From positions 1 through 55,633 of the forward strand of contig CANHPL010000012.1 of assembly GCA_947462685.1 (NCBI GenBank): a DNA stretch of 55,633 bases, given 5' to 3'. Shown here piece after piece: positions 29,629 through 35,661 of the stretch. Source of the DNA: Burkholderiaceae bacterium. Its GTDB lineage: Bacteria; Pseudomonadota; Gammaproteobacteria; Burkholderiales; Burkholderiaceae. Every line of letters begins with the position of its first letter. Position 1 is the stretch's first letter. The notes beneath the pieces are model-generated. The model worked only from the letters and a program-made list of their open reading frames with translations. It had not been told where the DNA came from and did not search any database. The position numbers and the translations under genes are program-made.

Positions 29629-30813
29629 ATGTTTTCCAATCAATTAAAGCGCTGTTCACGTTGCCTGCTGCCAGAAACCTATGAAACAATCGAATTTGAT
29701 GCGGAGGGTGTTTGTAACCTTTGTCGTGGCGCTGAGTTCAAGAAAAAAGAAGTTGATTGGGATGAGCGCAAGAAGCTGCTTGATCGTCTCATTGAAAAGT
29801 ACCGTGGCAAGGGAGATTATGACTGTATTGTGCCTTTTTCAGGGGGTAAGGACAGTACATTCCAGCTCTATTACCTGATGAAGGAATACGACTTGAAGCC
29901 CCTCGTAGTTCGTTTTAATCACAGCTTTATGCGCTCTACCCTTGAGGAAAACAACCAGCGAACACTAAAAAAATTGGGCGTTGACGTGCTCGAGTTCACG
30001 CCAAACTGGCAGATCGTCAAACGCCTGATGCTCGAGTCTTTCAAGCGTAAGACAGATTTTTGCTGGCACTGTCACTCGGGAATTTATACATACCCACTTC
30101 GTATCGCGGTTAAGTTCAACATCCCTCTTCTTTTCTGGGGTGAGGCCTTGTCAGACCTTTCGGGATATTACGATGCTCTCAACGATGAGATCGAGTATGA
30201 GGATGAGAAAAAATTCAACATGGTGCGCAATCTGGGGATTTCGGCTGACGACATGTGGGGCATGATTAACTCGCCCGAGAATCCTGTTGATAAGCGTGAC
30301 TTGATCCCTTACACCTACCCGACACTGAGGGATTTGAAGGCGATTGGTTATAACTCAGTATGTCTAGGTAGTTTTATTCCGTGGGACTACACCAAGAATA
30401 CCGAGGTCATCAAGCGCGAATTGGGTTGGCAGATTGACGAGCTGGAAGGGGTGCCGAGGGAAATCAACGGCCACGGTGAAAAAATCGAGTGCTTCATGCA
30501 GGGGACTCGTGATTACATCAAATTTATCAAACGGGGTTATAGCCGAGTTGCCCAAATTAATGCGTTCCATGTCCGGAGCGGACGCATGACAACAGAAGAG
30601 GCAAGAAAGATCGACACTGAGTTTGATGGCCAGCGTCCGCCTTCCCTTGATGTGTTTCTGGAATATATGGGTTTGACCGAAACAGAATTCAACGAAATTG
30701 TGATGGCTACGGCTATTCCGCCATACCATCATGACTTTGCTGCTAACACGACGGCAAAACCGGCATGGGATGCAATCCAATGGTACCGTGAAGATAATCG
30801 CAAAAAAACATGA
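29629..30813 (+). CDS. N-acetyl sugar amidotransferase, cassette 1
   Basis: A 394-residue PP-loop ATPase of the WbpG/PseA family, which turns an acetamido group on a sugar into acetamidino using ammonia. The N-terminus has two Cys pairs, RCSRCLLP (about 7-14) and CNLC (about 31-34), probably a zinc site; VPFSGGKDSTFQLYYLM (about 67-83) is the ATP-pyrophosphatase loop. The ATG at 29629 has AAGGA upstream; a longer in-frame start at 29590 is unlikely. The family relies on HisH-like glutaminase and HisF-like channel partners, and both follow directly with overlapping codons. Coming straight after the legionaminate genes, it may produce amidinated legionaminic acid, as PtmG does in Campylobacter. 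Confidence 0.9.
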   Translation: MFSNQLKRCSRCLLPETYETIEFDAEGVCNLCRGAEFKKKEVDWDERKKLLDRLIEKYRGKGDYDCIVPFSGGKDSTFQLYYLMKEYDLKPLVVRFNHSFMRSTLEENNQRTLKKLGVDVLEFTPNWQIVKRLMLESFKRKTDFCWHCHSGIYTYPLRIAVKFNIPLLFWGEALSDLSGYYDALNDEIEYEDEKKFNMVRNLGISADDMWGMINSPENPVDKRDLIPYTYPTLRDLKAIGYNSVCLGSFIPWDYTKNTEVIKRELGWQIDELEGVPREINGHGEKIECFMQGTRDYIKFIKRGYSRVAQINAFHVRSGRMTTEEARKIDTEFDGQRPPSLDVFLEYMGLTETEFNEIVMATAIPPYHHDFAANTTAKPAWDAIQWYREDNRKKT

Positions 30814-31427
30814 TAGGTATTATCGACTATGGCATGGGTAACCTTGGTTCGGTGACGAATGCCCTGGATCATCTGGGATTGGAGGCAGAAATTGTCGATA
30901 GCCCGAGTAGGCTCAGCGTCTATGATCACTTTATCTTGCCAGGCGTAGGCTCGTTTGGGATAGCCATGCGCAGTTTGGATGCGTCTGGGTGGAGCGACGC
31001 TTTGCGTAACAAGGTAGCTGATGGCATTCCGTTTTTGGGTATTTGTCTCGGTATGCAACTCATTTTTGATATCGGAGAAGAGTATGGTACAACCGCTGGC
31101 TTGGGTTTGATCCCGGGGCGTGTCGTGCCGCTTAACCCATCACCCTCATTTCGTGTGCCTCACGTTGGCTGGAATGGTTTGTCTTATCCGGGACGCCACC
31201 CGATATTTCAGGGCGTAAAGGAGCATATAGACTTCTATTTTGTTCATTCTTACCAGTGTGTGCCAGCCCTGGATGAGAACGTCTTGGCTCGGTGCGATTA
31301 TGGGGGTGAATTTGTAGCTGCTGTGGGCAAAGCAAACGTGGTCGGCGTACAGTTTCATCCTGAAAAAAGCCAGGACATGGGATTGAAGATTCTGGAAAAC
31401 TTTGCTGAGTGGGATGGTACATGTTGA
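30810..31427 (+). CDS. hisH: HisH-like glutamine amidotransferase, cassette 1
   Basis: Class I glutaminase that releases ammonia from glutamine for its partners. The 205 residues have IIDYGMGNLGSV (3-14), the nucleophile in FLGICLGMQLIF (about 75-86) and the His-Glu pair in VQFHPEKS (about 185-192); the catalytic triad looks intact. It overlaps the amidotransferase by ATGA and the HisF-like gene by seven bases. The histidine pathway role is unlikely because no other his genes are near and the HisF partner lacks a catalytic residue. Confidence 0.9.
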   Translation: MIGIIDYGMGNLGSVTNALDHLGLEAEIVDSPSRLSVYDHFILPGVGSFGIAMRSLDASGWSDALRNKVADGIPFLGICLGMQLIFDIGEEYGTTAGLGLIPGRVVPLNPSPSFRVPHVGWNGLSYPGRHPIFQGVKEHIDFYFVHSYQCVPALDENVLARCDYGGEFVAAVGKANVVGVQFHPEKSQDMGLKILENFAEWDGTC

Positions 31428-34244: not shown

Positions 34245-35021
34245 ATGATTAAAAATACACGGCTTATTGCCCGTCTCGATATCAAGGGCCCTAATCTGAT
34301 AAAAGGCATACACCTAGAAGGATTGCGTGTTATTGTTGGCTCTCCGAATGAACACGCATTACGCTATTATTTGCAGGGTGTAGATGAGTTAATCTACATG
34401 GATTGTGTAGCAAGTCTTTACGGGCGTAACCACCTTGGAGACATCATTAGGGCCGCAGCCAATAATATTTTTGTACCTATGACGGTAGGGGGCGGTATTC
34501 GTTCAGTCGAGGATGCTACACAGATTTTGCGTGCAGGGGCTGATAAGGTGGCGGTTAATACAGCAGCTATTTCCAATCCGCAATTGATCAGTGAAATTGC
34601 GCGAGGTTTTGGCAGTCAATGTATGGTCCTTTCTATTGAGGCTAAACAAGTTGGTATTGGTCAGTGGCAGGCATTCACAGACAATGGCCGTGAGTATACG
34701 GGGCTTGATGTAATTGAATGGGCCAAGCGTGGTGTTGCCATGGGTGCTGGGGAGATATTGCTGACCTCGATAGACCGTGAAGGCACTCGTAAGGGTTTTG
34801 ATATCGAGCTGGTAAAGGCGGTCAGTCAGGAGGTTTCAGTTCCTGTGATTGCAAGTGGTGGCATGGGTCAACCAGAGGATATCATTGGAGTAGTGCGCGA
34901 AGGAGGGGCTGATGCTGCAGCAATGGCGGATATATTACATTATAAGCGCGCTGAGATTGGTGAAATTCGTGCAATAGCTAAGTCAGCAGGTCTTGGTGTG
35001 AGAAACTATGAACTCTCTTAA
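34245..35021 (+). CDS. hisF: HisF-like protein with altered active site, cassette 2
   Basis: A 258-residue HisF-like barrel. The start MIKNTRLIARLDIKGPNLIKG keeps the first catalytic Asp (in RLDIKG), but the second position, Asp130 of Thermotoga HisF, is Glu here (MVLSIEAKQVG). MTVGGGIRSVEDATQILRAG and LTSIDREGTRKGFDIELV keep the barrel ends. The RLDIKGPNLIKGIHLEGLR start is typical of HisF paralogues in glycan loci. Expected to channel ammonia from HisH to the amidotransferase. It overlaps the following hisH by 14 bases. Confidence 0.88.
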   Translation: MIKNTRLIARLDIKGPNLIKGIHLEGLRVIVGSPNEHALRYYLQGVDELIYMDCVASLYGRNHLGDIIRAAANNIFVPMTVGGGIRSVEDATQILRAGADKVAVNTAAISNPQLISEIARGFGSQCMVLSIEAKQVGIGQWQAFTDNGREYTGLDVIEWAKRGVAMGAGEILLTSIDREGTRKGFDIELVKAVSQEVSVPVIASGGMGQPEDIIGVVREGGADAAAMADILHYKRAEIGEIRAIAKSAGLGVRNYELS

Positions 35022-35661
35022 TGTAACTGTCATCGACTACGGTGTCGGTAATCTTTTTAGTGTCCAGCGAGGGCTCGAGTATTCTGGTGCAACTGTAACC
35101 GTCACCTCTGATCACAAAAAGATTCTTTCATCACCTAGGGTCGTGTTACCTGGTGTGGGTGCTTTTAGTAATGCTATGCATGAATTGCATAGGTTGGGAT
35201 TGGTGGATGTCATTCGGCAACTTGCGCAAGATAAGACCCCCTTGCTTGGTATCTGTCTTGGAATGCAATTGCTATTAGATGAAAGTGAAGAGTTTGGAAT
35301 TACACAAGGCTTGGGTCTGTTACCTGGCAGTGTGATTTCGTTACCGGATCGAACTGTTGCAGGAGACCTTCAGAAGATTCCGCATATTGGCTGGAATGCT
35401 TTATATCCATCAAATGTTTCAAGCGACTGGAGCAGAACTGTTCTTGAAAATACTACTGTTGGTGAGGCTGTCTATTTTGTTCACTCATTCATGGCCGAAC
35501 CGGTTAATCCGGCGCATCGAATCGCCGACTGTGAGTTCGGCGGACATAAAATTGCCTCAGTTATCAGTAACGCAAATATTATAGGTTGTCAGTTTCATCC
35601 GGAAAAAAGTGGTGAGGTGGGTTTGAAAATACTGCGTAAATTTTGTAGCCTGAAAAAATAA
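35008..35661 (+). CDS. hisH: HisH-like glutamine amidotransferase, cassette 2
   Basis: A 217-residue class I glutaminase. VIDYGVGNLFSVQRGLEYSG (7-26), the Cys nucleophile in LLGICLGMQLLLD (about 78-90) and CQFHPEKSGEVG (about 192-203) show an intact triad. It has an insertion around residues 110-140 compared with the copy at 30810. Function as for cassette 1: supply of ammonia for amidination of a sugar acetamido group. Confidence 0.9.
   Translation: MNSLNVTVIDYGVGNLFSVQRGLEYSGATVTVTSDHKKILSSPRVVLPGVGAFSNAMHELHRLGLVDVIRQLAQDKTPLLGICLGMQLLLDESEEFGITQGLGLLPGSVISLPDRTVAGDLQKIPHIGWNALYPSNVSSDWSRTVLENTTVGEAVYFVHSFMAEPVNPAHRIADCEFGGHKIASVISNANIIGCQFHPEKSGEVGLKILRKFCSLKK

Follow-up and report, generated by a model that had tools for sequence, protein, structure and literature searches.

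Two complete amidination cassettes lie side by side in the 55,633-nucleotide stretch of DNA analysed here (the window; contig CANHPL010000012.1 of assembly GCA_947462685.1, from a Burkholderiaceae bacterium), and their amidotransferases (NASATs) belong to separate clades, of which one contains the Legionella pneumophila enzyme of PDB entry 8wex and the other is accompanied in most loci by a transaminase. By our reading of the genes the chances are about even that cassette B makes the 5-acetamidino group of a legionaminic acid (Leg)-type sugar and that cassette A caps an N-acetyl group which its own gene module installs, probably at C8, on the same sugar. One Leg-type sugar with two caps is likely, rather than two singly capped sugars. 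Surface sugars that are otherwise acidic gain positive charge through acetamidino groups.

Layout of the two cassettes

Cassette A (29629-32182) and cassette B (32998-35661) are both complete amidotransferase/HisH/HisF sets on the same strand with 0.8 kb between them, and open reading frames and family matches bear out the positions given in the initial annotation. The gene order is NASAT (29629-30813; 394 aa, with an alternative upstream ATG at 29590), HisH-type glutaminase (30810-31427) and HisF-type subunit (31409-32182) in A, but NASAT (32998-34236), HisF (34245-35021) and HisH (35008-35661) in B. Identity between A and B is only 26% for the NASATs, 38% for HisF and 40% for HisH, which, together with the different gene order and the separate clades of the NASATs, rules out a recent tandem duplication, as had been stated before.

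Upstream of A, the gene run begins with a NeuB/LegI-type sialic-acid-like synthase (23205-24275; TIGR03569 513 bits, cut-off 399.65), a NeuC/LegG-type hydrolysing 2-epimerase (24272-25432; TIGR03568 489 bits) and a PtmE-like CBS-nucleotidyltransferase of the Leg pathway (25451-26536; Pfam CBS and NTP_transferase), which has homologues in B-type and A-type Leg loci. These are followed by the CMP-sugar synthetase of the A module (26575-27297; 153 bits with the PseF model, below its cut-off of 205.7), which shares 44-56% identity with proteins encoded near most Leg-side A-type NASATs, by a HemL-like class-III PLP transaminase (27294-28655; PRK06209 family, 683 bits, cut-off 486), in which a GK stands at the expected position and provides what we take to be the PLP lysine, and by a PtmA-like short-chain dehydrogenase (SDR, 28686-29462; PRK09186 family, 343 bits, cut-off 255; YAAIK and TGG motifs). 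Between the cassettes lies a serine-acetyltransferase-like protein (SAT, 32179-32850), which scores 58 and 50 bits with EpsC and CysE, both below cut-off, and gave no match in a Pfam search; 3' of B lies a protein of no known family (35712-36893), for which NCBIfam and Pfam gave no match. Judged by family, the HemL-like protein is predicted to install an amino group, the SDR to oxidise a sugar hydroxyl and the SAT to be the N-acetyltransferase of module A. From 23205 to 36893 every gene is on the forward strand with intergenic gaps of at most 166 bp, which is compatible with the single operon proposed earlier without proving one. Moreover, the window also holds a pseudaminic acid (Pse) pathway (PseB-PseC-PseF-methylase-PseG/H-PseI), so that Leg-type and Pse-type synthesis genes are both present, again as first annotated.

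The HisH subunits of both cassettes keep the cysteine of GICLGMQ and the FHPE motif (TIGR01855 230 bits in A, 201.5 in B). The HisF subunits score 266.7 and 259.2 bits, below the cut-off of 294.55, and that of A reaches 287 bits with the WbuZ and 260 bits with the hisF model, both below cut-off. Aligned to the genome's own canonical HisF, D11 is replaced by leucine and D130 kept in A, whereas D11 is kept and D130 replaced by glutamate in B; D11 and D130 are presumably the catalytic aspartates of the histidine-pathway enzyme. The canonical HisF (374.8 bits) is encoded on contig C13, with a weaker match beside it that is probably HisA. The scores below cut-off, the lost aspartates and the canonical HisF on C13 rule out that the cassette subunits are the housekeeping histidine pair. 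The aspartate pattern recurs outside the window: after the removal of 64, 30 and 27 rows that are gapped at D11, some of them entire NASAT ORFs picked up via fused seed proteins, D11 was lost and D130 kept in 67/67 A-type HisFs, D130 was lost in 32/32 B-type HisFs with D11 kept in 30, and D11 was lost in 54/54 HisFs of other cassettes. In addition, the 23 sampled B-type HisFs form one clade (support 100) apart from A-type and other cassette HisFs (support 99). HisF might have been recruited twice from histidine synthesis, but the tree has no root and fits a single recruitment as well.

Amidotransferase clades and their gene company

Both NASATs score well above the TIGR03573 cut-off of 203.2 (A 327.3, B 327.6 bits) and have the fold of 8wex. 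The family hallmarks in the available text of the source, a PP-loop SGGXDS and the tetracysteine CXXC..[GN]XCXXC (PMC10607449), are found in A as SGGKDS at residue 71, CSRC at 9 and GVCNLC at 27, and in B as SGGKDS at 98, CTKC at 21 and GVCDAC at 54. A 99-row tree, in which about every second A row is represented and only amidotransferase ORFs of 300-560 aa are included, so that fused or overlong ones are missing, places B in the clade of 8wex (support 100; 500 bits to 8wex) and A in a separate clade (support 100), marked by a second cysteine motif, CWHCH (residues 145-149 of A), that is absent from B. A scores only 80 bits against 8wex. The two are thus not nearest relatives, and neither groups with the amidotransferases of plain Pse loci (L108, L113, L114, L129, L115, L137, L133, L158). 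Window B is sister to the B enzymes of L183, L200 and L194 (support 99), loci that each contain an A cassette as well, and of the 30 B-clade enzymes in the survey, 24 have a NeuC-type (Leg) gene nearby. By its clade with LpNASAT (8wex) B, but not A, would be of the Leg 5-acetamidino synthase type, and B is best read as grouping with legionaminic-acid enzymes that would make the known 5-acetamidino group. Window A belongs to a 14-row subset of the A clade (support 99), the other 13 members of which have HemL-like and SDR genes both nearby in 12 cases, SAT in 10 and a NeuC-type gene in 7; one of the 13 is also flagged Pse. Similarly, the window's HemL-like protein falls in a 16-row set of transaminases from Leg-side A loci (support 98); the housekeeping outgroup rows of this tree sit badly on long branches, and it was used solely to place the window's protein. 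This shared company of window A and the window's HemL-like protein with Leg-side A loci speaks for the proposal that they act on the same sugar as B.

The A-type enzymes mostly have a transaminase nearby. A transaminase, called as HemL type or, where a Gfo/Idh dehydrogenase accompanies it, as DegT type, occurs within about 9 kb of 67/80 A-type NASATs, 5/35 B-type and 16/77 others, the last being all rows outside A and B in a grouping from a quick FastTree (Fisher p 5e-20 with kinship ignored, independent cases being fewer than 80 on account of kinship among the A loci), and four of the five transaminase-bearing B loci also hold an A. The A set was fetched by two peptide patterns, one containing DFCWHC, so that its motif count holds partly by construction, and the HemL, SDR and SAT profiles were built from matches in these same loci. 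In a survey drawn without an A query, a transaminase stands beside 4/4 CWHC amidotransferases and 13/101 others (p 5e-4); its 94 stretches comprise most matches over the cut-off (G471:C35, G496:C2, with an in-frame stop, and G603:C131 lie outside) and hardly any below it. Furthermore, an extra transaminase is present in 5/6 survey Pse loci with two amidotransferases versus 1/16 with one (p 0.0013). At least one dehydrogenase is found in 59/80 A loci (SDR in 25, aldo/keto reductase in 30, Gfo/Idh in 7, overlaps counted), and as these families occur with Leg and Pse skeletons alike, the role of the dehydrogenase seems to be kept while the enzyme family changes. The SAT family is near 21/80 A-type NASATs, and acetyltransferases are frequent in A loci. 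Pse loci with dehydrogenase and transaminase genes yet no recognised amidotransferase (8/15 stretches) would be expected if amidination follows amination.

Several observations count against our reading. No transaminase was called in 13/80 A loci, of which 8 lie on stretches shorter than 18 kb (one of these short ones, L244, has a weak HemL match) and 5 on full 21-kb stretches; in the Leg-side A loci L184, L191, L192, L194, L195, L197, L199, L201 and L203 the transaminase is distant (23-28% identity); and the survey locus L135 has HemL and SDR homologues (65% and 54%) beside a distant kind of amidotransferase. In addition, among 398 genomes no recognised nonulosonic-acid genes surround L320 and L321, which hold the strongest two transaminase relatives; two further matches well above housekeeping level (G706, G506) lie outside the fetched loci.

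One sugar or two

How could two cassettes serve one sugar? From families, motifs, clades and co-occurrence we infer the following route. NeuC and NeuB would build Leg, the SDR would oxidise a free hydroxyl, the HemL-like transaminase would aminate the resulting ketone, and the SAT-like protein would acetylate the new amine. In each cassette HisH would release ammonia from glutamine and HisF hand it on, and the PP-loop amidotransferase would activate the oxygen of an N-acetyl group by ATP, whereupon NH replaces the oxygen. By analogy with C8 precedents, namely the epimerisation of Pse by EpaA/EpaB and the 8-amino nonulosonic acid of Flexibacter maritimus, a species since moved to Tenacibaculum, the new amine is probably at C8, the C4 hydroxyl being the other free one. 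More tentatively, and with rather less than even confidence, the product could be a triamino, doubly capped Leg (5- and 8-acetamidino) made by a portable module of dehydrogenase, transaminase, acetyltransferase and amidotransferase; the CWHCH enzymes would then form a distinct subfamily acting on amines that are added once the C9 chain exists, on Leg and Pse alike and in many phyla. Were the module to work in this way, the genes of a locus would predict the number of amines and amidines per nonulosonic acid.

The initial annotation had favoured one cassette per sugar, one amidinating Leg and the other Pse, so that each of two sugars in the glycan would bear a single cap. This we now consider rather unlikely. 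The window does hold a Pse pathway besides the Leg genes, 39/80 A-type rows are flagged Pse, and one locus (L209) carries B on its Leg part and an A-like cassette on its Pse part; however, window A sits in a Leg-tied subclade, among Leg-type genes and with the Leg-side SDR/HemL/SAT set, B sits in the Leg-type clade, and the only TIGR03573 matches in the genome (95.7% complete) are the window's two, so that the search gave none of the sort seen in plain Pse loci. It is unlikely, too, that A and B act on the native N5 and N7 N-acetyls of Leg while HemL and SDR serve another step, as this would give no reason why A-type enzymes go with transaminases on the Leg and the Pse side alike, even though Leg bears two N-acyl groups, L135 has HemL and SDR in the absence of an A-type enzyme, and only 5-amidino forms of Leg were met in the available literature, so that 7-amidination would call for a further enzyme.

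A sugar outside the nonulosonic acids, aminated by HemL and the dehydrogenase and amidinated by cassette A, is very improbable. Such a role would fit L320 and L321 as well as L112 and L156, which carry neuA, NASAT_A, hisH, hisF, SAT, hemL and SDR and where neither NeuB nor NeuC is among the genes recognised in 20 kb, but among the 25 Leg-side A loci with a HemL call, a same-strand NeuB-type synthase lies within 8 kb in 19 and a same-strand NeuA-type synthetase in 20. Retention of the PP-loop, the four zinc cysteines and the HisH motifs in both sets, as well as the occurrence of A and B pairs in three phyla, makes it hardly credible that one of the cassettes has lost its function or serves as a spare, despite the possible redundancy of two cassettes in one gene run.

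Two-cassette loci elsewhere and known systems

Two adjacent full sets had been thought to be without known precedent. The arrangement recurs, with two complete cassettes in 5/94 survey stretches and 7/80 A-type loci, which rules out that the window is unique; A and B occur together in Formivibrio citricus and three further Leg-side loci. Formivibrio citricus DSM 6150 (L183) resembles the window in having both cassettes with the module, at identities of 74% (NASAT), 60% (HisH) and 74% (HisF) for cassette A, 56% (SAT), 56% (neuA), 56% (hemL), 34% (SDR) and 65% (ptmE) for the module genes and 82% (NASAT), 81% (HisF) and 70% (HisH) for cassette B, which is followed by a homologue of the 35712-36893 protein (50%). 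It differs in that neuA-hemL-SDR lie between the cassettes, whereas in the window they precede A.

Among characterised enzymes, PtmG of C. jejuni is credited, in the available text, with making CMP-Leg5Am7Ac, and ORF 28 of L. pneumophila by homology (PMC3766260); 8wex is presumably the product of ORF 28. From these Leg5Am7Ac enzymes A differs by its other clade, its low score and its extra CWHCH motif. EpaA (cytidylyltransferase and aldo/keto reductase) and EpaB (SDR) carry out the C8 epimerisation of Pse (PMC12053666) and thus share enzyme classes with neighbours of A-type cassettes (aldo/keto reductase and cytidylyltransferase, SDR), but their product is an epimer, and the text available describes no transaminase or amidotransferase. 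An 8-amino nonulosonic acid is recorded for Flexibacter maritimus in the accessible part of PMC3210612. A targeted literature search, with subscription papers mostly outside its scope, gave an unrelated paper as its single match and found no doubly amidinated sugar, which, if the proposal is true, would be a class new to that search.

A similar published gene set, as far as the available text of its source goes, is the L. pneumophila serogroup 6/12 O-antigen locus with CapD, DegT, aldo/keto reductase, LPS protein, HisH, HisF, acetyltransferase, cytidylyltransferase, GSA-type aminotransferase and PseG, listed there by name without a pathway (PMC3694923). A structure titled for L. pneumophila non-1 serogroups, which perhaps does not cover serogroups 6/12, counts against the proposal, as it is 5-acetamidino-7-acetamido without an 8-amino group. 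Should the proposal hold, the HemL-like aminotransferases of published O-antigen loci, which in the texts available stand without an assigned step, would gain a candidate role. Compared by gene names only, the serogroup 6/12 list runs in an A-like order and matches Pse-side A loci (L241), and it differs from the window in being Pse-like, with one cassette and with an aldo/keto reductase replacing the SDR.

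The two cassettes and their surroundings

ORF calls bear out the initial annotation in that the window carries two full cassettes on the forward strand, A at 29629-32182 and B at 32998-35661, each consisting of an amidotransferase, a glutaminase and a HisF-type subunit. Both amidotransferases exceed the TIGR03573 cut-off in profile searches and retain the family PP-loop and zinc cysteines in a motif check (motif definitions from PMC10607449). Identity between the cassettes is 26% for the amidotransferase, 38% for HisF and 40% for HisH, and they account for the two TIGR03573 matches in the source genome (95.7% complete), whose canonical HisF lies on a separate contig, probably adjoining HisA.

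The cassettes close a legionaminic acid (Leg)-type run in the order NeuB, NeuC, PtmE-like protein, CMP-synthetase, HemL-like transaminase, short-chain dehydrogenase (SDR), cassette A, serine-acetyltransferase-like protein (SAT) and cassette B, with intergenic gaps of 166 bp at most between 23205 and 36893. 5' of this run lie a pseudaminic acid (Pse) pathway (PseB, PseC, PseF, a methylase, PseG, which also gives a weaker PseH match, and PseI) and, at 17512-21285, a Gfo/Idh dehydrogenase, a DegT transaminase, a GNAT and a 308-residue protein without family. In other genomes related groups neighbour the amidotransferases of Pse-type loci (L089-L092, L210, L228, L230), so the window may encode a further module for amination, directed at Pse. 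Near the right end a NeuD-type acetyltransferase, a DegT aminotransferase and a short CapD-like protein could supply early Leg steps. Directly 3' of cassette B, a 393-residue protein (35712-36893) lacks Pfam and NCBIfam matches and has a homologue with 50% identity at the equivalent place in Formivibrio citricus; further 3', a GDSL-like protein and a NodU-type carbamoyltransferase (37318-40214) likely serve more sugar decoration. A 13-bp stem within the PtmE-like gene (26271-26301) was flagged terminator-like, and a NusG-domain protein close to the glycan locus start (7979-8470) is perhaps an operon-specific antiterminator.

Residues D11 and D130 of HisF have roles in the histidine cyclase reaction. 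In alignments A-type cassette HisFs (partners of the CWHCH-motif amidotransferases) have lost D11 and kept D130 in 67/67 cases, and B-type HisFs (partners of amidotransferases in the clade of the Legionella pneumophila enzyme 8wex) have lost D130 in 32/32 and kept D11 in 30/32. Judged by these residues, both types would be unable to run the cyclase reaction, through different losses, as expected for ammonia conduits.

Recurrence in other genomes

Two adjacent full sets, for which the initial annotation knew no precedent, are a real and recurrent arrangement, two complete sets being found within about 20 kb in five of 94 survey stretches and seven of 80 A-type-scan loci; no description of it was found in the searchable part of the literature. 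A and B occur together in Formivibrio citricus (L183), Halodesulfovibrio (L194), Pelagibacteraceae (L199) and Bacteroidetes (L200), as well as in L209 with A on the Pse part. As Formivibrio citricus is an isolate, its A and B argue against misassembly in the window. Across 23 genomes with Leg-side A loci, whole-genome searching put A and a B-type gene no more than 10 kb apart in four. In the amidotransferase tree, from which overlong ORFs were excluded, window B is sister to the B genes of L183, L200 and L194 (support 99), so A and these B genes have stayed together.

Four longest-contig figures (118078, 22143, 28809 and 3888) were common to two best-120 match lists, a hint of more A+B contigs. 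Amidotransferases within open frames of about 690-840 codons (G092, G471, G760, G490, G619) are perhaps fusions. In a figure legend of PMC10607449 two Vibrio vulnificus amidotransferases bear consecutive accessions (WP_011149293, WP_011149294); their genes are possibly neighbours.

Transaminases in the company of A-type cassettes

Annotation of the 94 survey stretches and 80 named A-type-scan loci with window proteins as queries gave a transaminase, of one kind or the other, in the vicinity of 67/80 A, 5/35 B and 16/77 other rows, the associated p-values ignoring kinship. Four of the five B rows are loci also carrying A. The 16 other rows comprise 13 Gfo/DegT rows, ten of them from five loci with two amidotransferases apiece, and three HemL rows, two of which represent the second amidotransferase of an A locus. 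Dehydrogenase calls, covering three families, were made in 59/80 A loci. Among A loci picked by presence of a HemL call, the 25 on the Leg side carry, on the same strand and at most 8 kb away, SDR (22), CMP-synthetase (20), NeuB (19) and SAT (15), and the 33 on the Pse side GNAT (21) and two further families (25 and 16), whose scanned members are aldo/keto reductases and cytidylyltransferases. In survey Pse loci an extra transaminase accompanies two amidotransferases in 5/6 cases vs 1/16 with one, kinship again being ignored in the p-value. In the Pse-type loci L089-L093 and L097 one HisH/HisF pair is common to two amidotransferases.

A transaminase-family search of 398 genomes gave matches in 236, mostly at ordinary-HemL level, with four above the family cut-off. 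Of 15 stretches fetched around the strongest matches (window and known A locus excluded), eight (L322, L324, L325, L328, L329, L331, L333, L334) combine Pse-type genes, an aldo/keto reductase and the transaminase, and no recognised cassette was found in these eight; L326 holds pieces of HisF and HisH. A transaminase seen without the amidotransferase, together with a transaminase near most A-type amidotransferases, is the order expected if amination precedes amidination. Against the proposed amination and amidination scheme count the 13/80 A loci without a called transaminase, L135 (HemL and SDR homologues with an amidotransferase of a distant kind), the only distantly related transaminases of several Leg-side A loci, possibly the L. 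pneumophila serogroup 6/12 case, and L320 and L321, the two strongest of the fetched matches, around which recognised nonulosonic-acid genes were not found. The peptide-pattern fetch biases the A set, and kinship among loci lowers the weight of the counts.

Proposed amination and double amidination

In amidination, ammonia freed by the glutaminase is channelled by the HisF-type subunit and the amidotransferase makes the amidine using ATP. The two N-acyl groups of Leg and of Pse sit at C5 and C7, and the C4 and C8 hydroxyls are free. The dehydrogenase and transaminase would together install a third amine on the nonulosonic acid. A single Leg-side CMP-synthetase, belonging to the A-module kind, is present in the window, and each cassette is of a type associated with Leg. 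Economy therefore favours a single sugar bearing two acetamidino groups, the least secure step of the mechanism.

Roles in amidination are described for WbpG and WbuX in PMC10607449. C8 is the favoured position for the third amine, because enzymes of the aldo/keto reductase and SDR classes have been shown to carry out 8-epimerisation of Pse (PMC12053666) and a nonulosonic acid with an 8-amino group is known (PMC3210612). In aminoglycoside synthesis there are class-III transaminases that install amines on oxidised sugars, and the PDB matches include one such enzyme, the C-6' aminotransferase 7lld.
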